Positions 1,159 to 20,474 of a stretch of 64,000 bases of DNA are shown piece after piece. Origin of the DNA: Nevskiaceae bacterium (GTDB lineage Bacteria > Pseudomonadota > Gammaproteobacteria > Nevskiales > Nevskiaceae); the NCBI GenBank assembly GCA_021731445.1, contig JAKFXK010000010.1, positions 1 through 64,000 on the forward strand. Direction: 5' to 3'. A program made the translations under genes and the position numbers. The first letter of the stretch is position 1; every line of letters begins with the position of its first letter. The notes under the pieces are model-generated. The model made no database searches. It was not told the DNA's origin and was given only the letters and a program-made list of their open reading frames with translations.

Positions 1159-1836
1159 ATGCGCATTCTGGTGGTGGAAGACGATGCCGACATCGCAGGG
1201 TTTCTGTGCAAGGGCCTGCGCGAGGCGGGGCATGTCACCGACCATGCGCCGGATGGTCGCAATGGATTATTTCTGGCGACCGGCGAGGCCTACGACGCCA
1301 TCGTGCTCGACCGCCTGATGCCGCAGATGGACGGCCTCTCGATGCTCGCCGCCCTGCGCGCCACCGGCTCGCGGGTGCCGGTGCTGATTCTCTCGGCCCT
1401 TGGGCAAGTCGATGAGCGCATCAAGGGCTTGCGGGCGGGTGGCGATGACTACTTGGTCAAGCCCTTTGCCATCGCCGAACTGTTGGCGCGACTGGAAGTG
1501 ATTACCCGTCGCGGCCTCATGCCCGCCGCTGAGAACCGCCTGCGGGTGGCTGACCTCGAACTCGACCGCATGGCGCACACCGTCAAGCGCGGTGGTGAGG
1601 TCATCACCCTGAAGCCGCAGGAATACCGGGTGCTGGAGTTTCTGCTGCGCCACGCAGGCCAGGTGGTGACGCGCACCATGCTGCTCGAAGGTGTGTGGGA
1701 CTATCACTTCGACCCGCAGACCAACGTCATCGACGTGCATCTCTCACGGCTGCGCGCCAAGGTGGACAAAGCCCCCTGGAAGCCGCTGATCCACACCCTG
1801 CGCGGCGCGGGATATTGCCTGCGTGAACCGGAGTAG
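1159..1836 (+). CDS. OmpR-family response regulator
   Basis: MRILVVEDDADIAGFL receiver domain, VLDRLMP phospho-Asp region, LVKPF, and C-terminal winged helix (VIDVHLSRLRAKVDK...IHTLRGAGYCL). Confidence 0.95.
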   Translation: MRILVVEDDADIAGFLCKGLREAGHVTDHAPDGRNGLFLATGEAYDAIVLDRLMPQMDGLSMLAALRATGSRVPVLILSALGQVDERIKGLRAGGDDYLVKPFAIAELLARLEVITRRGLMPAAENRLRVADLELDRMAHTVKRGGEVITLKPQEYRVLEFLLRHAGQVVTRTMLLEGVWDYHFDPQTNVIDVHLSRLRAKVDKAPWKPLIHTLRGAGYCLREPE

Positions 1837-1838
1837 CC

Positions 1839-3185
1839 ATGCGTCTATCCACCTCTGCGCGCCTGACCCTCGCCAACAGCAGCCTGCTGGCCCTGAGCTT
1901 CAGCGCCTTGCTGCTCCTCGTGATCTGGCTGGCTGATCGCTTCATGGTCAGCCATGTGCAAGAGAGTGTGGCCGCCGAGCTGCACATCATGCAGGCCGAG
2001 TTGCAGGTGGATGGCGTGCGGGGTGTCACCGCGCTTATCAATCGCCGAATGGCAAACCTCACGCTCAACCACGACCGCCTGTATCGGTTTGAAGATGCGC
2101 AGGGGCTCAAGCTGGCGGGCAATGTCGAGAGCTGGCCGGTCACGTCGGTGGCGCAGGAGCAATCATTCAAGCTGCCGAGCCGCAAATATCCCGGCGAAAC
2201 CGAGGTGGTGCTGCAATGGTCTCGGCTCCTCGATGGCAGCCGCTTGTTGGTGGGTTTTGATGAAATCGAAGTGGCGTCGGTGCGCGGCGACATCCGCCGG
2301 GCTGCGCTCTGGAGCTTGGGCGCGATGCTGCTCATCTCGCTGACGGCGGGCTTTCTACTCACCCGCGCCGCACTCAAGCCGGTCGAAGCCATTCGTGCGG
2401 CGGCACAACGCATTCTGGAAGGTGATCTGCACCACCGCATCCCTGCACGGCCTGATGGCGATGAGTTCGACCGGCTGGGAGTCACGCTCAATTCCATGCT
2501 GGATCGCATCAATGGCCTGATTGCCTCCGTGCGCGGGGCCACCGACAACATCGCCCACGACCTGCGCTCGCCACTCACACGCCACCGCTCGCGGCTCGAA
2601 GCCGCACTTAGCAATCCCCCCAGTGCCGAGGAGTTGCAGCCCTGGGTCGAAAAACATCTGGCTGATCTGGATCAGGTGCTCGCCACCTTCCAGTCGCTGC
2701 TGCGCATCGCCAGTGTGGAGTCGGGCTTGCTACGGCAGGAGTTTTCGCCCTGCGATGTGGCTGCGCTCGTGCAGGATGCCGCCGACTACATCGAGCCCTT
2801 GACCGATCAAAAGCAGCAGCGACTCCAGCTGTCTGTCGAGCCAGGCCCCCTGCTGAACGGGCATCGGCACCTGTTGTTTCAACTGCTCATCAATCTGCTC
2901 GACAACGCCGTGAAGTTCAGCCCGCCGCACACCGCGATAAGGGTTGCGGCGCGAGTGACCGAGGGCCACTGGCAACTGAGCATCACCGACGCCGGGCCTG
3001 GCATTGAACCGGCGCAGCGCGAGCGTGTTTTCGAGCGGCTGTATCGACTCGATGCCTCGCGTCACACCCCCGGCCTCGGCCTGGGGCTCTCGCTCGTCAA
3101 GGCCATCGTCACCCTTCACGCGGGACACATCGAGTTGCAGGACAGCACGCCCGGCACGCGTGTGGTGGTCACGCTGCCGGTTTGA
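1839..3185 (+). CDS. sensor histidine kinase
   Basis: HAMP region, H-box (NIAHDLRSPLTRHRSRLE), N-box (INLLDNAVKFSPP), G-boxes (DAGPGIEP, GLGLGLSLVKAIV). Starts 2 bp after the response regulator stop. Confidence 0.95.
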   Translation: MRLSTSARLTLANSSLLALSFSALLLLVIWLADRFMVSHVQESVAAELHIMQAELQVDGVRGVTALINRRMANLTLNHDRLYRFEDAQGLKLAGNVESWPVTSVAQEQSFKLPSRKYPGETEVVLQWSRLLDGSRLLVGFDEIEVASVRGDIRRAALWSLGAMLLISLTAGFLLTRAALKPVEAIRAAAQRILEGDLHHRIPARPDGDEFDRLGVTLNSMLDRINGLIASVRGATDNIAHDLRSPLTRHRSRLEAALSNPPSAEELQPWVEKHLADLDQVLATFQSLLRIASVESGLLRQEFSPCDVAALVQDAADYIEPLTDQKQQRLQLSVEPGPLLNGHRHLLFQLLINLLDNAVKFSPPHTAIRVAARVTEGHWQLSITDAGPGIEPAQRERVFERLYRLDASRHTPGLGLGLSLVKAIVTLHAGHIELQDSTPGTRVVVTLPV

Positions 3186-3261: not shown

Positions 3262-3711
3262 GTGAAAATCATCCGCGCCATGCTGATCTGGATACTGGCT
3301 TTCTCCCTTCCGATAGAGGGGATGGCTGGCGTTTCGATGGCGCACTGCAAGGACATGTCGCTGATGGCTTCGACCGCGGCCGCCGAAGCCCCTGGGGCGC
3401 ATGACCACGCCGCGATGATGGCGATGGGCGGCATGAGTGACGAGGCTTCGATGGCTGGAATGAGTCATGCACAGCCTGGCGCGTCTGCCGAGCAAACCAG
3501 CGACGATATTGCAAACGCGGCATGTGAATGCGGGTGCAAATGCAGCGGTGACTGTGTGGTGGCTTGCAGTGGAATGATGGTTTCGCTGCTGCGCGTCGGG
3601 TTTTTAATGGATGGCAAGGCCGCTTCAGTAGCAACCGCGATTCCGCACGGACAGGCGCATGCCGCCTACCGTCACGCGCTCTTGCGACCGCCATCCGCCG
3701 TGGCGCTCTGA
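3262..3711 (+). CDS. small secreted Met/His/Cys-rich protein, CopL-like metal-binding
   Basis: Signal peptide, Met/His-rich middle (HDHAAMMAMGGMSDEASMAGM), Cys cluster (CECGCKCSGDC). Confidence 0.6.
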   Translation: MKIIRAMLIWILAFSLPIEGMAGVSMAHCKDMSLMASTAAAEAPGAHDHAAMMAMGGMSDEASMAGMSHAQPGASAEQTSDDIANAACECGCKCSGDCVVACSGMMVSLLRVGFLMDGKAASVATAIPHGQAHAAYRHALLRPPSAVAL

Positions 3712-3850: not shown

Positions 3851-5620
3851 GTGGTTTACAACTCGTTTCCCTCTACACGCACCGCCGTGGTGCTGGCTGC
3901 ACTCAGCCTGACGGCTTGCGCCAGCCTGCCTCCCGATCTGGGTCGGGCCGATGTCGCCCAAGTCGTCAGCGCCCGTGGACAGTCGCTACCCAGCGGGGAC
4001 ACCTCGCAGCTTTCAGCGCAACTGCTGGCGCAGCCGCTCACACCCGATAACGCCATCACGCTGGCGCTCATCCACAACCCGGCCGTGCGGCAAACCACGG
4101 CCCAGCTTGGCTTTGCCGCAGCGGATGTCTATGAAGCCGCGCGTATCGCCAACCCCGTGTTCAGCCTCTCGCGGCTGACCTCCAATGATCCGGCTGCGGT
4201 GTCGGCCCAGATTGGTCTTGGCATCGCGCTGAGCTTTACTGATCTGATTTTGCTGCCCGCCCGAAGCCGTTATGCCAAGGCGCAGTTCGAGGCCGTGAAG
4301 CTGGAGGTTGGCAGCAGCACACTCAAACTCGCCGCCGAGGTGCAGGCAGGCTGGTATGCCTTGGCGGGTGCCGAACAGGCTGCGACGCTGAGCGCCCGCG
4401 TGGCCCAGGCGGCGCAGGCGTCGGCTGATCTCGCGCAGCGATTCTTCGATGCCGGCAACATCAGCAAACGCGAGTTGGCGCTGGAGAAGGCCGCCGCCGC
4501 GCAGACGCAACTTTCGGCACTGTCGGCACAAGCTGCTGCTCAGCAGGCGCGCAGTGTGTTGAGCCGTCGGATGGGCCTCTCGGCCTCGCAAGACCAGTGG
4601 CATCTGGCAGGCGGCTTGCCTGCCCCGCTAGCTACAGAGGACGCACTGGAGCCCTTGCTGAAGCTCGCGGCCGAAAGCCGTCTGGATGTCGCCGCAGCCC
4701 GACAGAGCGCCGATGCCATCGCCAGCGCCTACGGCCTCGAACGTCGCACACAACTGCTGGGCCCGATTGAAGTGAGTTATCAGCGTCAGCGCGAAACCGA
4801 TGGCAGCCGAGTGATTGGCCCTGGGCTTTCAGTCGCCATACCGCTGTTCAATTGGGGATCGGGCCGTGTCGCACGGGCGCGGGCGCAACTGGACGGCGCA
4901 GAGGCCGAACTCGCTGCCCGTGAACTGGATGCAAGCAATGACGTGAAGGCTGCCCATGCGGCGGTTCAAGCCGCTAAATCCCTGGTGGTGAAATACCGCG
5001 ATGGGCTGATTCCACAGCGCGAAGCGGTGGTCGATCAGATGCAGCTCGAAGTCAACTACATGTTGATCGGTGTGTTCGAGCTGCTGGCCGCCAAGCAGCA
5101 GCAATACGACGCCTATTCGGGTTACCTCGATGCCGTGCGCGACTACTGGCTGGCCCGCACAGAACTCACCCGCGCCGTAGGACGCAAGCTACCCAGCAGC
5201 GATCAGGCCGCATCCGACACCCTCGACGCCGAGGCCCTTGCCAAGCCCAAGGGCGGCGGCATGAACCACGGTGCGATGGGCCATGACATGTCCGGCATGT
5301 CGGGTGAAGGCATGGAGGGCATGGATCACTCAGGTCAGGACACGTCGAAGATGCAGGACATGGATCAGAAGGATGAAGCCAAGCCGTCCGGTGGCGCGGC
5401 CGCGATGCCGGAGATGAAGGGGATGGACCACTCCGGGCACAACATGTCTTCCATGCCGGGCATGGAGAAATCCACCTCGCCCAAAACGGATAGCGCCCCT
5501 CGCGCCAAACAGCAGACCGAAATGCCAGTGAAGCAGGACGCCGCGAGCGAAGCCCCTGCGGAAACTCCCGTGAGCAAGCCGAAGCCGAAAGCACCCCAGA
5601 CCGACCATCAGGGCCACTGA
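3851..5620 (+). CDS. TolC-family outer membrane protein with Met/His-rich C-terminal extension
   Basis: Lipoprotein signal (LAALSLTACAS), TolC heptad regions, and a ~120-aa tail with MNHGAMGHDMSGMSGEGMEGMDHSG...MKGMDHSGHNMSSMPGM. Confidence 0.85.
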   Translation: MVYNSFPSTRTAVVLAALSLTACASLPPDLGRADVAQVVSARGQSLPSGDTSQLSAQLLAQPLTPDNAITLALIHNPAVRQTTAQLGFAAADVYEAARIANPVFSLSRLTSNDPAAVSAQIGLGIALSFTDLILLPARSRYAKAQFEAVKLEVGSSTLKLAAEVQAGWYALAGAEQAATLSARVAQAAQASADLAQRFFDAGNISKRELALEKAAAAQTQLSALSAQAAAQQARSVLSRRMGLSASQDQWHLAGGLPAPLATEDALEPLLKLAAESRLDVAAARQSADAIASAYGLERRTQLLGPIEVSYQRQRETDGSRVIGPGLSVAIPLFNWGSGRVARARAQLDGAEAELAARELDASNDVKAAHAAVQAAKSLVVKYRDGLIPQREAVVDQMQLEVNYMLIGVFELLAAKQQQYDAYSGYLDAVRDYWLARTELTRAVGRKLPSSDQAASDTLDAEALAKPKGGGMNHGAMGHDMSGMSGEGMEGMDHSGQDTSKMQDMDQKDEAKPSGGAAAMPEMKGMDHSGHNMSSMPGMEKSTSPKTDSAPRAKQQTEMPVKQDAASEAPAETPVSKPKPKAPQTDHQGH

Positions 5621-5686: not shown

Positions 5687-5995
5687 ATGAAAAACACCCT
5701 CATCACCACCCTCGCAGCCGCCCTTTTCACCTTCGCGCAGGGAACGTTTGCACACGACCCGGCAGAGCACGCCAAAGAAGCCGCAGCTGCGAAGGCAGGC
5801 CCCAACTGCGAGGCCATGAAGAGCATGGATCACTCGAAGATGGACCCGAATGATCCTGTGATGAAAGCCATGATGGCCAAGTGCGCGGGCAGCCAGAAAT
5901 CTGCCGAGCAGAAAGGCATGGAGGGCATGGATCACTCCAAGATGCCCATGCCCGCAACTGCACCCAAGAAAGCAGAAGCACACGGGAGCCACTGA
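5687..5995 (+). CDS. periplasmic Met-rich copper-binding-like protein
   Basis: Signal peptide MKNTLITTLAAALFTFAQGTFA, then repeated MKSMDHSKM / MEGMDHSKM. Confidence 0.65.
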   Translation: MKNTLITTLAAALFTFAQGTFAHDPAEHAKEAAAAKAGPNCEAMKSMDHSKMDPNDPVMKAMMAKCAGSQKSAEQKGMEGMDHSKMPMPATAPKKAEAHGSH

Positions 5996-7500
5996 TGAGT
6001 ACCAAGCCCGACCATCCGCAAGCCCTTGAGGCAGCCGAAACGCTGTTCACGCGGCGGCATCTGCTGCAACTTGCCGGGACGGCTGGCCTGTTGGCTGGTG
6101 TCTCACGCCCGGCACTGGCGCAGCACGAGGGCCACGACATGTCGTCCATGCCCGGCATGAACATGCCTGCAAAGGACAGCGCCCCCTCAAGCAATCCTGC
6201 CCCCGACGCGGTGGCGCCCAGCCAAGTGAAGAGACACCCGCAAGGCTATCTGCCAGTACGCACCCTCAACGGCTGGACGCTGCCCTACACGATGAAGGGC
6301 GGCGTCAAGGAGTTTCACCTGGTTGCCGAGGAAATCGAGCACGAGTTCGCGCCCGGCTCGCGCGGAAAATGCTGGGGCTACAACGGCACCACGCCCGGCC
6401 CGACGCTGGAAGTTGTGGAAGGCGACCGCGTCCGCATTCTCGTGACCAATCGCCTTGGTGAATCCACGTCCGTGCATTGGCATGGCATTGACTTGCCCAA
6501 CGGCTACGACGGTGTGGGTGGCTTGAATCAGCCGCACATCCAGCCAGGTGAGACGTTCGAGTACGAGTTCACGCTCAAGCAGCACGGCACGCACATGTAT
6601 CACCCGCATGCCGACGAGATGACCCAGATGGCGTTCGGGATGATGGGGCTGTTCATCATTCACCCGAAGGCGGGTGAGGACGTAAAGATCGACCGCGACT
6701 ACTGCTTCCTGCTGCACAACTGGGCGATGCACCCCGGCACCTACCGGCCCGACCCCAGCATCATGGTCGATTTCAATCTGTGGACGTTCAACAGCAAGAC
6801 CTTCCCCGCCATCGAGAATCTGGTGATGCGCACAGGAGAGCGTTGCCGCATCCGCATCGGCAACCTGTCGCAGTGGAATCATCCGATTCACCTGCACAGC
6901 AACCCCTTCTGGGTGACGGGCAGTGATGGCGGGCGCTGGCCGCGTAATCAATGGCGGCGCGAAGTCACCGAGATCGTCGGCGTCGGACAGATGCGCGACA
7001 TCGAGTTTGTCGCCACCGAGCCAGGCGATTGGGCCTTTCACTGCCATATGGCCCATCACACGATGGGGCCGATGGGTCATGGCACCCCCAATACCGTCGG
7101 CGTGGATCAGTCGGGCGTCGAGGCCGAGATTCGGCAGATGCTGCCGGGCTTCGCCGCGATGGGTAAGTTCGGCATGAGCGAGCACGGCGGCCATGTGGCG
7201 ATGGGCCTCGCCGGGCCGGACAACACACTACCGATGATGACCGGCGAAGGGCTCTACGGGCCTATCGAAATGGGTGGGATGTTCACGGTGCTGAAGGTGC
7301 GCGATCAGCAGAAACCGGGCGACTTCAGCGATCCCGGCTGGTATCGCCACCCCAAGGACAAGATCGCCAAAAAAGTCAGTGGCGATCCGGCATTCGGCAC
7401 CCCGCACCGCCGTCAGCCCTACGGCCCCTCGTCTTCACCGGCAGCGACGCCGACAGTACCGCCGATGGAATCCATGGATCACTCGAAGCATGGCAAGTAG
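5995..7500 (+). CDS. copA: multicopper oxidase, copper resistance CopA-like
   Basis: Twin-arginine signal (TRRHLLQLAGTAGLLAG); multicopper oxidase motifs HWHGIDLPNGYDG, GTHMYHPHADE, NHPIHLHSNPF, HCHMAHHTMGPMGH. Confidence 0.9.
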   Translation: MSTKPDHPQALEAAETLFTRRHLLQLAGTAGLLAGVSRPALAQHEGHDMSSMPGMNMPAKDSAPSSNPAPDAVAPSQVKRHPQGYLPVRTLNGWTLPYTMKGGVKEFHLVAEEIEHEFAPGSRGKCWGYNGTTPGPTLEVVEGDRVRILVTNRLGESTSVHWHGIDLPNGYDGVGGLNQPHIQPGETFEYEFTLKQHGTHMYHPHADEMTQMAFGMMGLFIIHPKAGEDVKIDRDYCFLLHNWAMHPGTYRPDPSIMVDFNLWTFNSKTFPAIENLVMRTGERCRIRIGNLSQWNHPIHLHSNPFWVTGSDGGRWPRNQWRREVTEIVGVGQMRDIEFVATEPGDWAFHCHMAHHTMGPMGHGTPNTVGVDQSGVEAEIRQMLPGFAAMGKFGMSEHGGHVAMGLAGPDNTLPMMTGEGLYGPIEMGGMFTVLKVRDQQKPGDFSDPGWYRHPKDKIAKKVSGDPAFGTPHRRQPYGPSSSPAATPTVPPMESMDHSKHGK

Positions 7501-7518: not shown

Positions 7519-8574
7519 ATGAAACGATTCAAGACAGCAGTTGCCCTCGTCGCTGTGGTCGCCATCGGAGGACTGGGGTTCATCTACTCCGGCGTCTATC
7601 CGATGAGCGCGGACGATGCGCACTCCAAGCCTGTGTATTGGGCGCTGGAAACCTTGCGTGAGCGATCCATTGCCGCCCGCACCCGCGACATCGAAGTGCC
7701 ACCGCTCGATGACCCGCAGATGCTGCTCACCGGTGGCGCGGACTACAACGACATGTGCGCGGGCTGCCATCTGAAGCCTGGCAAGACGTCGTCCGAGATG
7801 AGTGCCGGGCTCTACCCGCAGCCGCCCAATCTTGCGCTGGGCATCGAAGGCCACGCCGGGCATGAGGGCGGGCATGGCGATGTGAACACCAGCGCCGCAC
7901 GGCGGTTCTGGATCATCAAGCACGGCATCAAGGCCAGCGGCATGGCTGCGTTCGGGCCAACACATGACGACGCGCGCATCTGGGCGATGGTGGCCTTTCT
8001 GCAAAAGCTGCCGACGCTCGACCCTGTCCAGTATCAAATCCTCACGGCCCGTGCCGAAGGCGAGATGCAGGGAATGGATCACGAGAGCGATGCGCCCCAA
8101 GCCGCCGCCAGCGAAGTCAGCGCAAGGGATTCAAAAAGCGATGTGCATGACGGCATGAAAATGACCCAGCCTCATACCGCCGCAGCGGCATCGACGCCAG
8201 AGCAGGTGATGGCCGCGTTTCAGGCCGCCATGAAGTCCGGCGATGCGGCCTTGGTGAAACGCTGGCTGGCTCCCGAAGTGCTCATCTACGAAGGCGGTGC
8301 CGCTGAGCGTTCGCGCAACGAATATGCGGCACACCATCTCGGTGCCGACATGGCCTTCCTGAAGCAGTCACGGGTTGAAATCATCAAGCAATCTAGCGGC
8401 GGTGGTGACGATGCGGCCTGGGTCACGACCGAGTCCCGCATCCGTGGCGAGTCATCAAAAGGCAAACCGATTGATGTCGCCAGCACCGAGACGGCCCTGC
8501 TGAAGAAGACCGCCGAGGGCTGGCGCATCGTGCATCTGCACTGGTCATCGCAGGACTTCAAGGCTGTGCCCTAA
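7519..8574 (+). CDS. cytochrome c domain fused to a SnoaL/DUF4440-like (NTF2-like) domain
   Basis: Membrane anchor, haem-binding CAGCH, MDHE segment, then TPEQVMAAFQAAMKSGDAALVKRWLAPEVLIYEGG...GWRIVHLHWS. Confidence 0.75.
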   Translation: MKRFKTAVALVAVVAIGGLGFIYSGVYPMSADDAHSKPVYWALETLRERSIAARTRDIEVPPLDDPQMLLTGGADYNDMCAGCHLKPGKTSSEMSAGLYPQPPNLALGIEGHAGHEGGHGDVNTSAARRFWIIKHGIKASGMAAFGPTHDDARIWAMVAFLQKLPTLDPVQYQILTARAEGEMQGMDHESDAPQAAASEVSARDSKSDVHDGMKMTQPHTAAAASTPEQVMAAFQAAMKSGDAALVKRWLAPEVLIYEGGAAERSRNEYAAHHLGADMAFLKQSRVEIIKQSSGGGDDAAWVTTESRIRGESSKGKPIDVASTETALLKKTAEGWRIVHLHWSSQDFKAVP

Positions 8575-8614: not shown

Positions 8615-9676
8615 ATGAACCCTCGCGGCATCAGTGCCCGTGGTCTTGCGCGCCTGCTGCGCGAGCAGCTGCCACCGTTGGTGCTCGACGCGCGCCACAC
8701 CGAGTCGTTCCAACGCACGCCAGTCGGCATCGCCGGCGCGGTACCGATCTTCATGGACGAGCAGCCGCCCACCATCCCCGATCTGCCGCGCGGCGTGGCT
8801 GTCATTGTCTATTGCCATTGCAGCAGACAGACATCGAGCACCCGCGTCGCGCAATGGCTGCTTGGCGCGGGCTACGCCGATGTCAGCGTGCTGGAAGGTG
8901 GCTGGACGGCTTGGCTACGCGAGGGCGGCGACAGCGCCGCCCTCAACTTCGGACAACGCAGGCGCATCACTGGCTGGGCGACAGTGAAGCACCTCGCAGA
9001 CGGCGGCTCGATTGCCGAGGCTGCGTTCTTGAAAGGGCTGAAGCTGCCGGTGAAGCGCGAGCTGGCAGTGCTGTTTGTGGACATGGTGGATTCGACACAG
9101 TTGTTCGCCAGCCATACACCAGAGCAGGTGCTGACACTGGTGCAGAGCTTCATGCAGATCGTCGTGGACGCTGCCGTAAGCCACTGCGGCGACGTAAATG
9201 ACTTTGAGGGCGACGGCGCACTGCTCTACTTTGCGTCGCCAACCGATGCGGTAGCCGCAGCACTCACCATGCGTGCTGCGCTGGCAGTGCGCCGCAATGC
9301 ACAGCCCGAATTGCCACAGGCACGCTATGCCATCGACATGGGTGCGTTGGTCATCGGCCACGTTGGCGGTCGTGAACGACGCGGCCTGTCGTTCATCGGC
9401 ACCGCCGTCAACACGGCTGCGCGCCTGCTCAAGGCTGCACCTGTCGAGGGAATCATAACGACCCGTGCAGTTGTTGCGGCACTGGCGGCTTCGTCTGCCA
9501 GCGACCGCGCCTCGCTTTTTCACCCATTCCCGCCTGCTGTGCTGCTGAAAGGGTTTAGCACGCCAGTGGATGTGTTCTGCCTGCCATCAGGCAGCGAATT
9601 GCAAAGCTGTGAAGTGTCACCCGTCATCAACCAAAAACTACCTCCATTCAGCGAGACTCACCATGAAAACCAGTAA
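8615..9676 (+). CDS. rhodanese domain - class III nucleotide cyclase domain fusion
   Basis: N-terminal rhodanese (VYCHCSRQTSSTRVAQWLLGAGYADVSVLEGGWTAWL) followed by class III cyclase motifs (ELAVLFVDMVDSTQLF, DFEGDGALLYF, FIGTAVNTAARLLKAA). Confidence 0.85.
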   Translation: MNPRGISARGLARLLREQLPPLVLDARHTESFQRTPVGIAGAVPIFMDEQPPTIPDLPRGVAVIVYCHCSRQTSSTRVAQWLLGAGYADVSVLEGGWTAWLREGGDSAALNFGQRRRITGWATVKHLADGGSIAEAAFLKGLKLPVKRELAVLFVDMVDSTQLFASHTPEQVLTLVQSFMQIVVDAAVSHCGDVNDFEGDGALLYFASPTDAVAAALTMRAALAVRRNAQPELPQARYAIDMGALVIGHVGGRERRGLSFIGTAVNTAARLLKAAPVEGIITTRAVVAALAASSASDRASLFHPFPPAVLLKGFSTPVDVFCLPSGSELQSCEVSPVINQKLPPFSETHHENQ

Positions 9677-10079
9677 GCCACGATCCGCACAGCTCGCCAA
9701 TGTTCAAAGCCTGCCGCATAGCCTGGCTTTTGGGCTGCGAGGGGGTCACTCCACCCTCATTCTGGACGTCCGTCCCCGCCAGAGCTTCGTACAGCGCGCT
9801 CTTGGGCTGGCCGATGCCGTTCCGATCTTCTCTGACGATACGCCCTTGCTGCTGCCCGACATGGATCGTGCCCATCCGATCCTGGTCTATTGCGACTCCG
9901 ACCAGCAGAAGTCCTCGCATCAGGTTGCTCAGTGTTTGATCGCGGCTGGCTACCTACATGTCTGGGTCATGGATGGTGGATTGGCCGCATGGAACCAATC
10001 CCGGAGCCGCAGCGCCCTAGTGAGCCTGGACGCGCGCGAGCCGATCAAAAACTGGATTGCGGCGCCGTCGGCGGTTTGA
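9663..10079 (+). CDS. rhodanese-like protein (catalytic Cys position is Ser)
   Basis: DAVPIFSDDTPLLLPDMDRAHPILVYCDSDQQKSSHQVAQCLIAAGYLHVWVMDGGLAAW; start overlaps the upstream stop by 14 bp. Confidence 0.75.
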   Translation: MKTSKPRSAQLANVQSLPHSLAFGLRGGHSTLILDVRPRQSFVQRALGLADAVPIFSDDTPLLLPDMDRAHPILVYCDSDQQKSSHQVAQCLIAAGYLHVWVMDGGLAAWNQSRSRSALVSLDAREPIKNWIAAPSAV

Positions 10080-10113
10080 GTCTTACCCTTCGATTCTCTG
10101 GCTTGGAAACACG

Positions 10114-10641
10114 ATGAAACATCAACAGCAGCCGCGCGGAAGTCGATCTGGCTGGCATAGTTTGTCGGCACGGCAGTGGATGCTGATCGGCTCCGTCGCG
10201 GTGAGCCTTGCCTTGGTCGCCCTCGCGTTGATGCGCTGGGATCAAACCCAGGCAGATACGCCGCCACCGAAAGGTATGGTCGTGGTTTACAAATCCCCTG
10301 AATGCGAATGCTGCGCGCGCTGGGTCACGCACTTGAAGGCCAGTGGGATCGCGGTGCAAGTGCGTGAAGATGTGCCGCTCACGCTGGTCAAGAAGCGTCT
10401 GCAAGTGCCGCAAGCCTTGTCCAGCTGCCATACAGCGGAGGTGGATGGCTACGTCATCGAAGGACACGTCCCAGCAGAAGATATTCGGCGCTTGCTACAG
10501 GAGCGTCCGCGCATCTCAGGCATCGGGGTTGCAGGGATGCCCAACGGCTCTCCGGGCATGGAAGGCTATGGGCCGGACGAGCACTACCAGACCATGCAAT
10601 TCGATGCAGCAGGCAAGATAAGCGTCTACTCAGCACACTGA
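10114..10641 (+). CDS. DUF411 metal-binding protein
   Basis: VVYKSPECECCARWVTHLKASG...SCHTAEVDGYVIEGHVPAEDIRRLL; N-terminal membrane anchor. Confidence 0.9.
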   Translation: MKHQQQPRGSRSGWHSLSARQWMLIGSVAVSLALVALALMRWDQTQADTPPPKGMVVVYKSPECECCARWVTHLKASGIAVQVREDVPLTLVKKRLQVPQALSSCHTAEVDGYVIEGHVPAEDIRRLLQERPRISGIGVAGMPNGSPGMEGYGPDEHYQTMQFDAAGKISVYSAH

Positions 10642-10642
10642 A

Positions 10643-11590
10643 ATGGAGGAATCCCTTTTGCCCAATCTTCTCAAGTGGTCGGCCTATCTGCTGCCGGGGC
10701 TGGTCGTTGCTGTTGGCCTAAGCCTTTGCACAATCATTGCTTTGCGCCATTACGAGGACGCGCTGCGGAACTTCACTCCTGAGCCGCCGGAGACGATTCT
10801 CACGCATCCAGAAAACACCGGCATCCAGGGCCTTGAGGATGCCTCGTTCATCAGCAGCGATCACACCCTGATCGGGGCGTGGTATGTCCCTTCACACAAC
10901 GGCGCTGCGGTCGTTCTGGTGCATGGAACCAGCGCAGACCGGAGCTCGCTTCTGGTCGAAATGAAAAGCCTGGCGGCGGCGGGCTTTGGGGTGCTGGCTT
11001 ACGACGGCCCTGGATACGGCCTCAGCGGAGGCAGCGTTTGCTGGGGCGACGATTCGACAGCAGCCCTGAGTGCTGCCATCGGCTGGCTGGCCGCGCGCCC
11101 TGAACTGAAGCCGGGCCGCATCGGCGCGCTCGGCCTCTCGATGGGGGGATATGTGCTCACGCAGTTCGCGGCCCACGATCAGCGTCTGCAATCACTGGTG
11201 CTAGAGGCGGTTCCTCCCGACATGATCGAGACCACGCGCTGGCAGCATCGGAAATGGGGCTTCCTCAGCGAACAACCCGCGCTCTGGGCACTTAGGCACT
11301 CGGCGATGCCCTTGGATCATCCAGGACCCAAAGACCTCATCGCGGCCATCGCCCCGCGTCCCCTTCTGATGATCAGCGGCGATCAGGATCAGACCGTGCC
11401 GCTGTTCATGACCCGCCAACTGTTCGACCTCGCTTCAAATCCAAAATCACTCTGGGTTGTGGCGGGTGCGGGGCACGGTCGATATGGAGAGGTCGCACCG
11501 GAGGAGTACTCCCGTCGGCTTGCGGCCTTTTTCACACTGACCTTGCTGCATGACGTGACTCCCGTTGAAGATCGGGGGGCACATACATGA
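10643..11590 (+). CDS. alpha/beta hydrolase
   Basis: VVLVHGTSADRSS, nucleophile elbow GALGLSMGGYV, late His GAGHGRYG. Confidence 0.9.
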   Translation: MEESLLPNLLKWSAYLLPGLVVAVGLSLCTIIALRHYEDALRNFTPEPPETILTHPENTGIQGLEDASFISSDHTLIGAWYVPSHNGAAVVLVHGTSADRSSLLVEMKSLAAAGFGVLAYDGPGYGLSGGSVCWGDDSTAALSAAIGWLAARPELKPGRIGALGLSMGGYVLTQFAAHDQRLQSLVLEAVPPDMIETTRWQHRKWGFLSEQPALWALRHSAMPLDHPGPKDLIAAIAPRPLLMISGDQDQTVPLFMTRQLFDLASNPKSLWVVAGAGHGRYGEVAPEEYSRRLAAFFTLTLLHDVTPVEDRGAHT

Positions 11591-12012
11591 AGGCTGCGGG
11601 CCGAAGAAGCAAGCTCCCCTTGGCCGCAGTCCGTGTCGGAGCAGATCTCATGCATGTCGGCACGGTGCGTGACTCGATTGACCAGTTTGGCTCACGTTAT
11701 CTGGAGAGGGTTTTCACCGCCGCCGAGATCGAATACTGCCAACGCAGCGATGGTGAAATGCACCGTCGTTTCGCGGCACGGTTCGCGGCCAAGGAGGCAA
11801 CGCTGAAAGTGCTGAGGCCCGACCAGCACTGGCTCGACTGGCGCACCATCGAGGTCATCAAAATGCCGGGAGGATGGTGCGAGATGAGATTGCATGGACC
11901 TGCCGAGGCACTGGCAAGGCGCGCGGGGGTCGTTGCGCTCTCGGTCAGCCTCAGCCATGAGAAGTCCTATGCCCTTGCGATGGTCTCGGCCATCATTCAT
12001 CAGGATGTATAA
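11587..12012 (+). CDS. acpS: holo-[acyl-carrier-protein] synthase (4'-phosphopantetheinyl transferase)
   Basis: VGADLMHVGTVRD, FTAAEIEYC, RFAARFAAKEATLKVL, VSLSHEKSYALAMV. Confidence 0.85.
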   Translation: MKAAGRRSKLPLAAVRVGADLMHVGTVRDSIDQFGSRYLERVFTAAEIEYCQRSDGEMHRRFAARFAAKEATLKVLRPDQHWLDWRTIEVIKMPGGWCEMRLHGPAEALARRAGVVALSVSLSHEKSYALAMVSAIIHQDV

Positions 12013-12115
12013 GCACCTATTGTTGCTGTGTTTTGTTCATTAAACTGTCTACCTGCGACCAGCAGTCGTTCGTTCTCCAAAAGCCGTTACAACTACCATC
12101 GAAGGGTTCCCCACC

Positions 12116-12361
12116 GTGACCATCGTCAACGATATTCGCCAAGTCCTCAAAGACCATGCAAGGCTCTCCGCCGATACCACCACGCTCGCGGAGGACGCTG
12201 ACCTCTACCAAGCCGGATTGACCTCCCACTCCAGTGTCAACGTCATGCTGGCACTTGAAGGCAAGTTTGATGTCGAGTTCCCAGACCGGATGTTGAAGCG
12301 TGGCGTGTTCGGCAGCATCGCCAGCATCCGCGATGCGATCACCGAACTCACTGCGGCCTGA
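12116..12361 (+). CDS. stand-alone carrier protein
   Basis: 81 aa, GTG start; DADLYQAGLTSHSSVNVMLALEGKFDVEFPDRML is a carrier-protein fold signature with the pantetheine Ser region. Confidence 0.85.
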   Translation: MTIVNDIRQVLKDHARLSADTTTLAEDADLYQAGLTSHSSVNVMLALEGKFDVEFPDRMLKRGVFGSIASIRDAITELTAA

Positions 12362-12402
12362 CCACAACAGCATCAAATATTGCAGGCCAATTGGGGGAGA
12401 GG

Positions 12403-13563
12403 ATGAAAAACGACACCAGAATCAAGATTGCCCAGCGTATCGGCAGTGACATCGCTGCCAAGCACGCGCTGGATGTAGACAAGAACTCGCGCTTCCCGAC
12501 AGAAGCGATCGCTGCGCTCAAGCAGGAAAAACTGCTCTCGGCACTGGTGCCTGTAGAGCTTGGCGGTATGGGCATGGAAATGACCGAACTGACGGCGCTT
12601 TGCACCGCGCTCGGCCAGCACTGCGCGGCGACCGCGATGGTATTTGCCATGCACCACATCCAGGTGGCCTGCATTGTCCGCCACGGCTTGGGGTCGCCTT
12701 TTTTTCGCAGTTATTGTCAAGAATTAGTCGAGAAGCAGATGCTGATCGGCTCGGTGACTTCCGAAGTCGGCGTTGGTGGCGATACCCGCTCCAGCATCTG
12801 CGCGGTCGAGGTTGCTGGCGACCGCTTCACACTCAACAAGGACGCCACCACGATTTCCTACGGTGCGCACTCCGATGATCTGCTCATCACCTGCCGCCGC
12901 GATGCCAGCGCCGCACGCAGCGATCAGGTGATGGTGCTGGTGCGCAAGGGCCAATTCACCTTGGAGCAGACCTCGCAGTGGGACACGCTGGGCATGCGCG
13001 GCACTTGCAGCCCCGGTTTCAAGCTCACATCCAGCGGTTCTTCTGAACAGATCGTGCCCGGTGCCTATGCCGATTCGTCGAGCCAGACGATGGTGCCCTA
13101 TTCGCACATCCTCTGGGCTGGGCTGTGGCTGGGCATCGCCAGCGATGCGGTCGCCCGCGCTGCGACGTTTGTGCGTGCTGAAGCCCGACGCAATCCAGGC
13201 GTCACCCCACCTACGGCGCTGCGTCTGGCGGAAGTCACAAACACCTTGCAGTTGATGCGCTCCAACGTGCAGGCGGTGTCACAGGAGTGCGAAGAACTCC
13301 AGAAGTCAGCCGAGGGCAACGAGTCGCTGTTGACTATCGGCTTCGCATTGAAGATGAACAATCTCAAGATTTCGACTTCGACGTTGATGGTGCAGGTCGT
13401 GCATCAGTCGCTACTGATCTGCGGAATCATGGGCTACAAGAACGACAGCAAGTTCAGCCTCGGTCGCCACCTGCGCGACTCACACTCCGCACAGCTGATG
13501 GTGGGCAACGACCGCATCTACGCCAAGAGCGCGTCGATGCTGCTGGTCTACAAGGACGAATAA
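12403..13563 (+). CDS. acyl-CoA dehydrogenase family protein
   Basis: LLSALVPVELGGMGMEMTELTALCTALGQHCAATAMVFAMHH; VEVAGDRFTLNKDATTISYGAHSDDLLITCR; TSQWDTLGMRGTCSPGFKL; C-terminal helical domain. Confidence 0.85.
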   Translation: MKNDTRIKIAQRIGSDIAAKHALDVDKNSRFPTEAIAALKQEKLLSALVPVELGGMGMEMTELTALCTALGQHCAATAMVFAMHHIQVACIVRHGLGSPFFRSYCQELVEKQMLIGSVTSEVGVGGDTRSSICAVEVAGDRFTLNKDATTISYGAHSDDLLITCRRDASAARSDQVMVLVRKGQFTLEQTSQWDTLGMRGTCSPGFKLTSSGSSEQIVPGAYADSSSQTMVPYSHILWAGLWLGIASDAVARAATFVRAEARRNPGVTPPTALRLAEVTNTLQLMRSNVQAVSQECEELQKSAEGNESLLTIGFALKMNNLKISTSTLMVQVVHQSLLICGIMGYKNDSKFSLGRHLRDSHSAQLMVGNDRIYAKSASMLLVYKDE

Positions 13564-13574
13564 GGGGGCGCGCC

Positions 13575-14480
13575 ATGCAATACGACAACAAATCTCTCTA
13601 CGACGGCCTGGTCGCCAGCGGCCTCATCATCCCCACCGGTGAGCCGGGCGTGTTTGGACGCAATGCGGTGTTCGAGGACGTGCTCGAACGCTTTAACGGC
13701 CTTGTCACCCAGTTGGCCCAAGCCGATGGTGCGGAAAAGTTCACCTTCCCGCCCACGCTGGCACGCGAGGTGTTCGAGAAGAGTGGCTTCATGAAGTCCT
13801 TCCCGCAACTCGCTATGGGCGTAGTGAGCTTCTGCGGTTGCGGCAAGGATCACGCCGAACTGGTTTCGCGCATCGCTGACGGCAAGTCTTACGACGACCT
13901 GATGACCCGCACCGGCGTCGTGCTGATTCCTGCCGCCTGCTATCCGATCTACCCCAGCTTCACCGGCACGCTGCCTGAGGGCGGGCGGCTGGTGGACATG
14001 ACGCATTGGGTATTCCGCCATGAGCCTTCGGAAGAGCCCACGCGGATGCAGTCTTTCCGCGTCCGCGAGTTCGTCCGCGTCGGCTCCCCGGAGGCGGTGA
14101 TCGAGTGGCGCAACATGTGGTTGCAGCGTGGCTTGACGCTGTTGCAGTCGCTGGGTCTGCCCGCCCAAGAAGAGGTAGCGTCTGATCCCTTCTTCGGCCG
14201 CGTTGGCAAGATGCTCGCCAACAACCAGCGTGAGCAGAAGCTCAAGTTCGAGGTGGTGGTGCCGGTGATCTCCGAGGAGAATCCGACCGCCGTGTGTTCA
14301 TTCAACTACCACCAAGATTACTTCTCGAAGACCTTCGAGATCATGCAAGCCAACGGCGAGCTGGCGCAGACCGCTTGCCTCGGCTTTGGTCTGGAAAGGG
14401 TCTGCATGGCGCTGTTCAAGCACCACGGGTTTGATCCCAAGCAGTGGCCAGCCGCCGTTCGCAGCAAGCTCTGGCCGTGA
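13575..14480 (+). CDS. amino acid--[acyl-carrier-protein] ligase (class II seryl-tRNA-synthetase-like, no tRNA-binding arm)
   Basis: Class II motif 2-like FRHEPSEEPTRMQSFRVREFVRVG and motif 3-like LGFGLERVCMALFKHHG; about 300 aa with no N-terminal coiled coil; adjacent to a carrier protein gene. Confidence 0.85.
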   Translation: MQYDNKSLYDGLVASGLIIPTGEPGVFGRNAVFEDVLERFNGLVTQLAQADGAEKFTFPPTLAREVFEKSGFMKSFPQLAMGVVSFCGCGKDHAELVSRIADGKSYDDLMTRTGVVLIPAACYPIYPSFTGTLPEGGRLVDMTHWVFRHEPSEEPTRMQSFRVREFVRVGSPEAVIEWRNMWLQRGLTLLQSLGLPAQEEVASDPFFGRVGKMLANNQREQKLKFEVVVPVISEENPTAVCSFNYHQDYFSKTFEIMQANGELAQTACLGFGLERVCMALFKHHGFDPKQWPAAVRSKLWP

Positions 14481-15460
14481 GTGCTGTCCGCGTTTTACCA
14501 CTGAGTTCGGCGAACTATGAGGTGCATCATCTGCACCGCGAAGATCGCGCCTGGGTGGAAAAGAACTGTTACGTGGATGTCTGGATCGAAGCCATTCATG
14601 CACTGGGGCTTGATCCCACCGCCATGCTGGCGTTCACGGTCGGCCTAGATTTTGAGGGCGACCAGTGGGCGTTTTTCAAGCCACCGCATCGGGACTTGTC
14701 ACAGCTTTACGGAATTGATGTTTTTGAGCTGAATGTCTGGCGCGGCGACATCCTCGCCCATGCGCAGCACCACGCCCGCGAAGGCAAGCTGGTGTTTACC
14801 GAAGCCGATGCTTTCTGGATGCCCGATACCTCTGCCACCGACTACCGTCGGCAGCACACCAAGAGCACCATCGTTATCAACGCGATTGATGACGAAAACC
14901 AGCGACTGGGTTACTTCCACAACGCGGGCTATCACGAGTTGAAGGGCGAGGATTTTGCCCACCTGTTCCGCGTCGGCTACCCCCACGATCCTGCGTTCCT
15001 GCCGCTTTTTGCTGAGTACGCGCGGGTGGATCGAATCGAGCGTCTACCGATTCAGAAACTGGCCACAGTTTCGATAGACCTGCTGCGTGCCCATGTGGCG
15101 CGTCTGCCCTTGGTCAATCCTATCCGCCGTTTTGCGGCGCAGTTTCCACAAGATGTGGCTTGGCTTCAGAACGAGGGTCTGCCGCTGTATCACGGCTATG
15201 CGTTTGCCACCCTGCGGCAGTTGGGGGCCAATTTCGAGCTGGCTGCGATTTACCTCGACTGGTTGTCCACGAACGGTGAGAGCGGACTCGGTGATGCGCA
15301 GGTCGCTTTCTCCGAGATTTCGTCGGGTGCGAAGGCACTGGTCCTAAAAACGGCAAGGGCTGTCAATGCCAAAAAAACGGTGGACTTTGCACCGCTGTTG
15401 GAAGAAATGGCAGGAGCCTGGGATCGCGGCATGGAGTGCCTCAGGGGACGGTTGCGCTGA
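14477..15460 (+). CDS. DUF1839 family protein
   Basis: GTG start overlaps the ligase stop (GTGA). HREDRAWVEKNCYVDVWIEAIHALGLDPTAMLAFTVGLDFEGDQWAFFKPPHRDL is characteristic. Confidence 0.8.
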   Translation: MSAVRVLPLSSANYEVHHLHREDRAWVEKNCYVDVWIEAIHALGLDPTAMLAFTVGLDFEGDQWAFFKPPHRDLSQLYGIDVFELNVWRGDILAHAQHHAREGKLVFTEADAFWMPDTSATDYRRQHTKSTIVINAIDDENQRLGYFHNAGYHELKGEDFAHLFRVGYPHDPAFLPLFAEYARVDRIERLPIQKLATVSIDLLRAHVARLPLVNPIRRFAAQFPQDVAWLQNEGLPLYHGYAFATLRQLGANFELAAIYLDWLSTNGESGLGDAQVAFSEISSGAKALVLKTARAVNAKKTVDFAPLLEEMAGAWDRGMECLRGRLR

Positions 15461-15469
15461 CACCTGCCG

Positions 15470-18019
15470 ATGCCTCTCATTCTCTCCAATTTCAGCGGCA
15501 ATGCTCCTGCTGATCTGAGTCTTTCGCAGGGATGGGAGTTGGCGATACTCCCGACCAGCACGGCACTCGATCCCGGCTCGCTGATGGCGGCCGCACCCGA
15601 ATGGTTGTCTGCGCAGGTGCCAGGCACAGCAATGTCGGCCCTGTTTGCCGCAGGCCGCGCCAGCTTTACTCAACTGACTGCACTGGATGCGCAGGACATC
15701 TGGTATCGCTGCTGCTTTGCCTCAGACGTGGCGCAAGCGCAGCAGTTTCTCGTGTTTGAAGGACTCGCTACGCACGCCGAGGTTTGGCTCAATGGCAAAT
15801 GCATACTAGAATCCAGCAATATGTTCGTTGCGCATCGCGTAGCGGTGAGCTTGCAAGCGCACAACGAGTTGTTGATTCGCTTCGCTTCGATGCAACAGGC
15901 GCTCAAGGCGCGTCGCCCGCGCCCGCGTTGGCGCACTCGGCTGGTCGAACAACAGCAGTTGCGCTGGATGCGCAGCAGCCTCTTGGGCCGCATCCCGGGC
16001 TGGACGCCCGCTACGCCCGCCATCGGCCCCTGGCGACCTATTCGCTTGCAGGCAACTGCACAGTTCACCTGCGAGCAACTGGATGCGCAGGTAAGCCTCG
16101 ATGGCGAGACCGGCCTGGTGGCGCTTTCGATGCGTCTATGTGCGGCGGCAGCCAATGTGCAGATCACCACCGCCCGCTTAATTGTTGGTGATACCGAGTC
16201 ACCCTTGAGCGTGCAGGCCCTCGACAACGGCAACTGGCAACTGCAAGGCATAGCCCGCATCCCCGATGCGCGCCTGTGGTGGCCACATACACACGGAGAA
16301 CCCGCGCGGTATGCGGTTGCCGTCGTGATCGAAACCCGCGAGGGTGCGCAGCGTCTTGATTGCGGTCATACCGGCTTCCGCCAGATCACCCTGCACAGCG
16401 AGGGCGATGCCTTCGCGCTTTCCGTCAACGGCGTGCCGGTGTTCTGCCGGGGCGCTTGCTGGACGACCACCGACATCCTCAATCTCGTCGGCAGCCAAGC
16501 CGCCACGCGGCAAGCCCTGTTGCTGGCGAAAGAAGCCGACATGAACATGCTGCGCGTCGGCGGCACCATGTTCTACGAGGCCGATCATTTCTACGCGCTC
16601 TGCGATGAGCTGGGCATCCTGCTCTGGCACGACTGGATGTTCGCCAACATGGATTACCCGGCGGAAGACCCGGAGTTCGTGGCGAGTGTCGAGACCGAGG
16701 CGCGGCAGTTTCTGCACCGCACACAACTTTCGCCCTGCCTCGCGCTGCTCTGCGGCAACAGCGAGATCGAGCAGCAGGCCGCGATGCTGGGCCTCGAAAA
16801 GCCGCTCTGGCGCAACCGCCTGTTTGCTGAGCTGCTGCCGGCCATCGGCATTGCCCTGCGGCCAGATGTGCCGTATTGGCCTTCGAGCCCCGCCGGTGGT
16901 GTGCTGCCATTCCAGGTGGATTCCGGGGCCGCGCACTACTTCGGTGTCGGCGCTTATCTGCAACCCCTGAACGATGCGCGCCGCTCTGGCGTGCGCTTCA
17001 CCTCCGAGTGTCTGGCCTTCGCCAACGTGCCGGAAACAGAGACCATTGAAGCCCTGTTGGGCGAGGGCCAGTCGCCGTTGCATCATCCGTTGTGGAAGGC
17101 TCGCGTGCCCCGCGACAGCGGCCCCGGCTGGGACTTCGACGATGTGCGCGACCATTACCTTGCCGAGCTGTTCAAGGTTGATCCGATGCGTCTGCGCTAC
17201 GCCGACATGGATCGCTATCTGGCCTTGAGCCGGGTTGTGACGGGCGAAGTGATGGCTGCGGCCTTCGGCGAATGGCGGCGCCATGGTTCGAGCTGCGCGG
17301 GCGGCATTGTCTGGTTTCTGCGCGACCTTTGGCCTGGTGCGGGCTGGGGGGTGGTGGATTCGTTCGGCAACCCCAAAGCGGCCTGGCATTACCTCAAGCG
17401 CGTGCTCGCCCCGGTGGCACTGCTCATCACCAACGAGGGCGTGAACGGCTTGGCACTGCACGCCATCAACGACGGTGCGCAGGCCATCGCCGCGCGGATC
17501 ACGCTCACCCTCTATCGGCATGGTGAGCAGGCCGTTGCCGAGGGTCAGCAGGAGGTGCTGATCCCGGCACGGGGCAGTGTGCAACTAAGGGGCGATGCAC
17601 TGTTCGGTCACTTTCTCGATACCACGTACACCTATCGCTTCGGGCCATCGGGACACGATGTTGCGCACGCCGTATTGCGAGATACCGCTACGGGCGAAGT
17701 GCTGGGTTCTGACTTCTTCTTCCCGCTTGGCCACGCCTTCGCAGTGCAGCCTTCGCTGGGGATGGAAGCCGAAACGCTGGCGCTGGCAGATGGCTGCTAC
17801 CAAGTGACGGTGCGCAGCGCGCGCTTCGCACAGTCGGTTTCCGTTGAGGCTCCCGGCTTCCATGCGAGCCACTGCTACTTTCATCTACAACCGGGCGGTA
17901 TGCAGCAATTGCAGCTGATGCCCAAACAGCCAGGAGCGCGCCTTCACGCAACATTGCAAGCCCTCAATACCCACCAGCGCGTGAAACTGGTGCCTGTGTT
18001 GCGCGAGGTATCCACATGA
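15470..18019 (+). CDS. glycoside hydrolase family 2-like (beta-mannosidase-like) protein
   Basis: Jelly-roll domain (EVWLNGKCILESSNMF), LRVGGTMFYEADHFYALCDELGILLWHDWMFANMDYP, and LLCGNSEIEQ acid/base region. Confidence 0.8.
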   Translation: MPLILSNFSGNAPADLSLSQGWELAILPTSTALDPGSLMAAAPEWLSAQVPGTAMSALFAAGRASFTQLTALDAQDIWYRCCFASDVAQAQQFLVFEGLATHAEVWLNGKCILESSNMFVAHRVAVSLQAHNELLIRFASMQQALKARRPRPRWRTRLVEQQQLRWMRSSLLGRIPGWTPATPAIGPWRPIRLQATAQFTCEQLDAQVSLDGETGLVALSMRLCAAAANVQITTARLIVGDTESPLSVQALDNGNWQLQGIARIPDARLWWPHTHGEPARYAVAVVIETREGAQRLDCGHTGFRQITLHSEGDAFALSVNGVPVFCRGACWTTTDILNLVGSQAATRQALLLAKEADMNMLRVGGTMFYEADHFYALCDELGILLWHDWMFANMDYPAEDPEFVASVETEARQFLHRTQLSPCLALLCGNSEIEQQAAMLGLEKPLWRNRLFAELLPAIGIALRPDVPYWPSSPAGGVLPFQVDSGAAHYFGVGAYLQPLNDARRSGVRFTSECLAFANVPETETIEALLGEGQSPLHHPLWKARVPRDSGPGWDFDDVRDHYLAELFKVDPMRLRYADMDRYLALSRVVTGEVMAAAFGEWRRHGSSCAGGIVWFLRDLWPGAGWGVVDSFGNPKAAWHYLKRVLAPVALLITNEGVNGLALHAINDGAQAIAARITLTLYRHGEQAVAEGQQEVLIPARGSVQLRGDALFGHFLDTTYTYRFGPSGHDVAHAVLRDTATGEVLGSDFFFPLGHAFAVQPSLGMEAETLALADGCYQVTVRSARFAQSVSVEAPGFHASHCYFHLQPGGMQQLQLMPKQPGARLHATLQALNTHQRVKLVPVLREVST

Positions 18020-19842: not shown

Positions 19843-19850
19843 GTGCCACC

Positions 19851-20474
19851 ATGATCGCAAGCCAACAGCCGATGAGAGCCGTGAGATCGGAGCCGTGTGT
19901 CCAATCCATCGTCCCTGATTACCAGGCTGCCTGGTTTGCAGGACACGACCGGATTGTTGCACCGATACGCCGCCATTTGACGGTTTTCCCGGAGCATAGT
20001 CAGTGCCTTGTGGACATCGGGGCGGGTGATGGATCAGTGCTTGATGACATCGCCAGCCGCCTGCCACAGTTCAAGCAACTCGTCGGCATCTCTGCGGATC
20101 AGCGTGGGCTCAGCTTGGCCCAGGTACGCATCCACCACGATGCAAGGCTGCGATTTCACTGCGGCAATCCTTGGGCCTGGCTGCGACGTCATGTGTATGG
20201 GCATGGGCAGGCCATCATCTTCAGCTATGACAACCTATCGGTGGTGCCAGAGCCGCTCTTGATGGATTGGTTTGCGGAGCTAGCTGATCTCGGCATTGCC
20301 GCCCTCGCTTTGGTGGAGGCGCGCGACGGAGGCTGCGGACAACTGCCAGAATTATTGCGGCGCTGCGGATGGAAGGTTGAGCACGCTGAGAGCGCCTACC
20401 AAGATGAGCGAGCCTGGTGGCGAGTGTTCGCCAGCTTTGACACGACAGATGCATTACTGGGGTTTTTCGCATGA
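19851..20474 (+). CDS. class I SAM-dependent methyltransferase-like
   Basis: Motif I LVDIGAGDGSVLDDIASRLPQFKQLVGISAD. Confidence 0.65.
   Translation: MIASQQPMRAVRSEPCVQSIVPDYQAAWFAGHDRIVAPIRRHLTVFPEHSQCLVDIGAGDGSVLDDIASRLPQFKQLVGISADQRGLSLAQVRIHHDARLRFHCGNPWAWLRRHVYGHGQAIIFSYDNLSVVPEPLLMDWFAELADLGIAALALVEARDGGCGQLPELLRRCGWKVEHAESAYQDERAWWRVFASFDTTDALLGFFA

Follow-up and report, generated by a model that had tools for sequence, protein, structure and literature searches.

Selenoproteins are mostly redox enzymes, and copper and sulfur stress operons of the CsoR/CstR type are regulated by DNA-binding repressors, not by a fused cyclase. A rhodanese family with a CxU active loop, LYCAU, is listed as rhodanese-like form 3 in a 2026 review of the prokaryotic selenoproteome, the main text of which does not contain the word 'cyclase' and mentions no such fusion (PMC13188914). 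Among class III cyclases, guanylate cyclases have Glu in place of the adenine-specifying Lys, and C, S, T, H, A or G as the second base-recognition residue (PMC4215837; PMC7384201). Literature searches for a rhodanese-cyclase fusion, a selenoprotein cyclase and LYCAU, with most subscription papers outside their scope, returned nothing relevant, and there is no earlier description of a rhodanese-cyclase fusion in the literature searched. Here we describe such a fusion gene from a copper-resistance locus of a Nevskiaceae genome. The locus lies within the window, by which we mean the whole stretch of 64,000 nucleotides that was analysed (Table 1).

Table 1. Positions in the window of the fusion gene, its domains and key residues, and the neighbouring genes
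Feature	Coordinates	Strand	Basis
Response regulator and sensor kinase, head of copper locus	1159..3185	+	Pfam
Outer-membrane efflux protein (OEP)	3851..5620	+	PF02321
Multicopper oxidase (CopA/PcoA type)	5995..7500	+	PF07731/PF07732
Cytochrome c and SnoaL-like protein, upstream neighbour	7519..8574	+	Pfam
Rhodanese-class III cyclase fusion gene	8615..9676	+	ORF, PF00581 and PF00211, AlphaFold2 model, full-length homologues
Rhodanese domain, residues 13-102	8651..8920	+	Pfam, NCBIfam
Active-loop CxC: C67 codon 8813-8815, C69 codon 8819-8821 (TGC)	8813..8821	+	Alignments
Linker, residues 103-147	8921..9055	+	Alignments
Class III cyclase homology domain, residues 148-291	9056..9487	+	Pfam; fold match to CyaC/CyaB/Cya2
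D156, first metal-binding Asp	9080..9082	+	Invariant in alignment
C191 of HCGDV motif	9185..9187	+	Invariant in family alignment
D196, adenine-specifying Lys position (G-3 of GDG)	9200..9202	+	CyaC/CyaB alignment
D200, second metal-binding Asp	9212..9214	+	Invariant
S259, Asp/Thr base-recognition position, 7 residues before transition-state Asn	9389..9391	+	Alignment
N266 ... R270, transition-state pair	9410..9424	+	Alignment
Rho2, stand-alone rhodanese	9663..10079	+	Pfam, identity to fusion, tree
DUF411 (CopG-type) metal protein, downstream neighbour	10111..10641	+	PF04214

The fusion gene, its locus and its distribution

According to the list of open reading frames, the gene encodes a protein of 353 amino acids. 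Pfam Rhodanese (PF00581) matched the N-terminal domain, active-loop Cys included, with 42.4 bits (cut-off 22.2), and Guanylate_cyc (PF00211) matched the C-terminal domain with 30.5 bits (cut-off 21.9). In alignments, the linker ends just ahead of the cyclase in a conserved IAExAFLxGxxLPxRR motif. The AlphaFold2 model, computed with 26 related sequences, comprised two confident, well-formed domains (mean pLDDT 88.2) and a disordered tail at residues 330-353. By Foldseek, the cyclase half was matched to CyaC (2bw7, 1wc1), CyaB (3r5g) and the guanylyl cyclase Cya2 (2w01) with E values of 1e-13 to 4e-15 and a target TM-score of about 0.8. The fusion of a rhodanese to a class III cyclase, as predicted by the first-pass annotation, is hence backed alike by the reading frame, both Pfam domains, the structure model and the Foldseek matches. 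The existence of full-length relatives at 42-58% identity indicates that the fusion is a conserved gene and not a chance product. A scan for promoters and terminators around the gene yielded nothing above chance.

The gene order at the locus is OEP, small protein, multicopper oxidase, cytochrome c/SnoaL, fusion, Rho2 and DUF411, with the two-component system located upstream; about 40 bases separate the upstream neighbour from the fusion start. These Pfam assignments agree with the copper-resistance setting proposed previously. Within the flanking sequence covered, metal-efflux genes accompanied the fusion in all 13 Salinisphaerales loci examined, ten of which had a multicopper oxidase homologue and eight a DUF411 gene. 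A P1B-type ATPase with heavy-metal domains, an RND pump, a cation-efflux protein or a MerR regulator occurred at other Salinisphaerales loci. Beside the copper locus, inspection of translations by eye revealed a region (11587-20471) encoding a holo-ACP synthase-like protein, a carrier protein, an acyl-CoA dehydrogenase, an aminoacyl-tRNA-synthetase-like carrier-protein ligase, a large glycoside-hydrolase-like protein and alpha/beta hydrolases, which looks like a carrier-protein aminoacylation cluster.

The start of the stand-alone rhodanese gene rho2 overlaps the end of the fusion by 14 bases, and this overlapping gene was absent from the first-pass annotation. Rho2 is 40% identical to the rhodanese domain of the fusion and was found in two of the 58 genomes of the family set. 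In one genome of the window's own genus (L108), the orthologous operon, with a multicopper oxidase of 89% identity, has its slot filled by Rho2 alone. Rho2 is rare in this set and clusters with the fused rhodaneses in a tree of rhodanese domains, which suggests that it is a fused copy that lost the cyclase domain.

A search of 61 related genomes gave near-full-length matches in 13, the window's own included, and the fusion was present in 11 of the 58 genomes of the Nevskiaceae family set. In a scan of named genomes, the fusion was also found in Sinimarinibacterium, Algiphilus and Oceanococcus, and more distant members with 36-42% identity occurred in metagenome-assembled genomes (MAGs) of Myxococcota ('Deltaproteobacteria'), Binatota, Rokubacteria, Methylomirabilota and Tectomicrobia. 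Of 369 genomes sampled class-wide around the window, only the window's own had the fusion; in two class-wide searches around the distant MAGs, only a few per cent of the genomes were positive, and no full-length relative was found in a plasmid collection. Based on the few matches in the class-wide search and the three wider samples, we concluded that the fusion family is real but rare. One copy from a Salinisphaeraceae MAG (L026, 10001-10933) has an in-frame TAA within the cyclase domain and is probably a pseudogene or an assembly error. Three further relatives (L041, L042 and L043) consist of the cyclase without a rhodanese and carry the same HCGDVKDYEGDG motif; their genomes have tRNA-Sec, and SelB exceeded the cut-off in two of them.

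Catalytic and base-pocket residues of the cyclase domain

Alignments of the family revealed that D156, D200 and R270 are invariant and that the whole CGDVxDxxGDGAxLYF block is conserved. Both metal-binding Asp residues are thus kept, as had been noted, and so is the transition-state pair N266 and R270 in the window protein. Across the family, position 266 is occupied by N, H, S or P; relatives without the Asn need not be inactive, since the active cyclase Ma1120 has Ala at this position (PMC4215837). All family members also share C191 of the (H)CGDV motif, which none of the canonical cyclases in the alignment has and which may represent a second redox or persulfide site.

The first-pass annotation had also suspected substitutions at the Lys and Asp/Thr positions and had called for an alignment of the class III catalytic positions. 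Profile alignment to CyaC and CyaB placed D196 at the Lys position and S259 at the Asp/Thr position, so that both are indeed substituted. D196 is invariant across the family, and residue 259 is S, A, L or T. In 19 other class III cyclases from a pattern scan, the Lys position was occupied by K (13), R (3), N (2) or Q (1). Asp is nevertheless found at this position in L010 and L013, two further cyclases of the window genome, which makes the change unusual rather than unique. These two unrelated class III cyclases (contigs C82 and C95) carry KDHAGDG or KDYAGDG, with Val or Thr at the partner position.

Where adenylate cyclases are recognised by Lys plus Asp/Thr, the window protein has D196 and S259, and measured against the guanylate cyclase pair it has Asp, not Glu, together with Ser. 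Judged by sequence, this combination of an acidic and a small residue resembles the pocket of guanylate cyclases more closely than a dead site, as both metal-binding Asp residues and the Arg are invariant. GTP would be the most likely substrate, given the Asp196 in place of the adenine-specifying Lys and the small residue 259; specificity for GTP is an extrapolation, as the residue at the Lys position of known guanylate cyclases is Glu and not Asp. We infer GTP as a tentative candidate; that no nucleotide is turned over appears unlikely, ATP slightly more so, and a pyrimidine NTP improbable.

Of the alternative readings, the one that survives best, unlikely as we consider it, holds that the rhodanese domain is an ordinary enzyme of sulfur transfer or thiol redox chemistry and serves to detoxify sulfane sulfur or Cu(I)-thiol products, the cyclase-like domain being a degenerate nucleotide-binding regulator without second-messenger output. 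Such a role would fit the replacement of both the Lys and the Asp/Thr of the base pocket, the variable transition-state Asn and the operon of L108, in which Rho2 takes the slot without a cyclase. However, conservation of the metal-binding Asp residues, the Arg and the CGDVxDxxGDGAxLYF block is unexpected for a decaying site, and Rho2 has lost the second Cys of the loop. It is improbable that the protein is an adenylate cyclase producing cAMP under rhodanese control with a base pocket that is arranged differently: an invariant acidic residue occupies the place where adenine N1 needs a donor (PMC7384201), although the nearest structures are the adenylyl cyclases CyaC and CyaB and although L010 and L013 also combine Asp at the Lys position with Thr or Val.

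A Pycsar-like pyrimidine cyclase acting in phage defence is very improbable. The PycC models of PADLOC matched the cyclase domain with 64.9 bits, and one clade B PycC uses an Asp in base choice (BcPycC Y50/D94/R97; PMC11224242). An ordinary cyclase of the window genome scored higher on the same models (75.8 bits), so the match is not diagnostic, and the PycC assignment of the fusion was rejected on this ground. Moreover, neither a TIR nor a TM effector lies beside the fusion, the neighbours of which are copper genes.

Cysteine and UGA at the second position of the rhodanese loop

The active-site Cys that had been recognised in YCHCSRQ is C67, which lies at the canonical catalytic position of rhodaneses and is conserved in the family alignment. 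It is followed by an extra Cys, C69, which the earlier reading had passed over and which corresponds to UGA in relatives. A Y-C-x-C loop was present in all fused Salinisphaerales members, and both loop positions were conserved in every fused member, as Cys or with UGA at position 69. An in-frame TGA at the C69 codon was observed in eight members (L031, L033-L039; e.g. YCT(TGA)PEDASS) and in two partial members that were found later, L101 (YCL(TGA)TGETSS) and L105 (YCS(TGA)PGEATS). The codon was accordingly UGA in ten of ten non-Salinisphaerales relatives covering the site and UAA or UAG in none, and in the complete members the reading frame stays open past the TGA through both domains. In L037, TGA occurs at both loop positions (3520-3528, Y-UGA-T-UGA-P), making it a possible UxU selenoprotein.

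SelB (TIGR00475) exceeded the cut-off in the genomes of seven of the first eight UGA members (L031, L033, L034 and L036-L039); the L035 genome yielded SelB as a weak C-terminal fragment only. Scores of 71-77 bits for tRNA-Sec were obtained in five of these eight genomes (L031, L033, L036, L038 and L039), three lacking a strong match. The Myxococcota genome of L101 and L040 (G455) seemingly holds two partly masked fusion copies, one of them with UGA (YCL-U); it has a tRNA-Sec of 71 bits, yet SelB did not exceed the cut-off. None of the Nevskiaceae genomes searched, including the window genome (87% complete), had SelB over the cut-off. Matches to the tRNA-Sec model (RF01852) stayed below 50 bits in Nevskiaceae, and those of 45-50 bits were taken as cross-hits of long-arm tRNAs because SelB is absent there. 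Directly 3' of the UGA, the next 48 nt fold into a hairpin; its apical stem has five pairs, its short loop includes a G, and one of its pairs is exchanged between U-A and C-G. UGA members formed 8-12 of its 12 pairs compared to 5-9 in Cys members, a contrast that is partly built in, since the structure was derived from UGA sequences.

When compared with NCBIfam, the rhodanese domains of the window protein and of all relatives tested matched NF041203, rhodanese_LYCAU '(seleno)protein', best. The window protein scored 56.9 bits and the relatives 48-84 bits, below the curated cut-off of 115, and we thus regard the window protein as a relative of LYCAU and not as a member. It is itself no selenoprotein, having TGC at codon 69 and a genome without SelB over the cut-off. 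The distant relatives combine an in-frame UGA aligned with Cys, Sec machinery and a SECIS-like hairpin, and they appear to carry selenocysteine at the rhodanese active site. In the rhodanese-domain tree, the UGA member L101 is nested within the Cys clade of Salinisphaerales (support 100/99), which indicates that Cys and Sec were exchanged at site 69. The domain anatomy and this exchange are, at the level of sequence, the established part of our reading.

That the UGA codons are sequencing errors, true stops or marks of pseudogenes, leaving nothing special about C69, is hardly credible: every UGA member stems from a MAG, and among the first eight genomes three are without a strong tRNA-Sec and one without a full SelB, but an artefact would not be expected to strike one codon in ten of ten cases and several phyla, always as UGA and with frame and domains intact thereafter, alongside matching SelB and tRNA-Sec, a rightly placed hairpin and a selenoprotein family as top match.

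In both Rho2 copies C67 is retained, whereas Ser takes the place of the second Cys (YCDS and YCQS). With C69 or UGA in every fused member and Ser in both Rho2 proteins, the second chalcogen goes with the cyclase. These two cases, which are related to each other, give a hint that C69/Sec69 serves the coupling to the cyclase.

Proposed function and comparison with known systems

We propose that the fusion is a cytoplasmic chalcogen-switch (thiol/selenol) nucleotide cyclase. C67 and C69, or C67 and Sec69 in relatives, would form a reactive pair that changes its state under sulfur, redox or copper stress, the candidate states being a persulfide, a disulfide or selenylsulfide, or a Cu(I) thiolate. 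This change would pass via the linker to the cyclase dimer and alter the production of a cyclic nucleotide, with cGMP as the most likely product. We infer the sensing, the activity and the substrate, and hold it quite possible, though short of probable, that such a switch responds to reactive sulfur, redox state or Cu(I) and controls a nucleotide cyclase that may prefer GTP. The window genome encodes eight cNMP-binding domains over the cut-off, which could act as readers of the signal; no dedicated cNMP receptor gene lies beside the fusion at the locus.

The first-pass annotation had suggested a sensor of sulfur or metal stress with a cyclic nucleotide as its output. As a class of explanation this is still the best. 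A Pfam scan of the neighbours of UGA members revealed neither a common partner nor metal genes, and their placement among unrelated genes, outside copper islands, points to copper as a lineage-specific use and not the general ligand. As the copper link is specific to Salinisphaerales, the core function is more likely sulfur or selenium redox than copper as such. A further-reaching proposal, which we consider doubtful, is that the family represents a new type of signalling enzyme: a Sec (or Cys) of the rhodanese loop would itself be the direct sensor of reactive sulfur, selenium or metal and would control the synthesis of a cNMP, possibly cGMP or a non-canonical one, the Cys form having been recruited into copper resistance in Salinisphaerales. 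If true, selenium and sulfur chemistry would be tied to second-messenger signalling through a Sec that sits in the sensor domain of a cyclase. For experiments, the Cys/Sec exchange singles out the residue of interest, stand-alone Rho2 provides a natural control, and the uniform change of Lys to Asp allows a direct test of the substrate.

The fusion shares the fold and the catalytic metal and Arg residues with CyaC (1wc0), CyaB (3r5g) and the guanylyl cyclase Cya2 (2w01), but differs by Asp196 for Lys, Ser259 for Asp/Thr, the invariant Cys191 and the rhodanese sensor. Pycsar PycC cyclases likewise have a class III fold with altered base-pocket residues; the residues altered are different, and the fusion has a metal-resistance context and no defence effector. 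A sulfurtransferase adjoining metal or sulfur stress genes is a likeness to the rhodanese-containing copper and sulfur stress operons of the CsoR/CstR type. With NF041203 rhodanese_LYCAU the family has in common the CxU/CxC active loop (CxC in the window, CxU in relatives); LYCAU is a stand-alone model of 126 residues, whereas the rhodanese of the window is fused to a cyclase and uses Cys.
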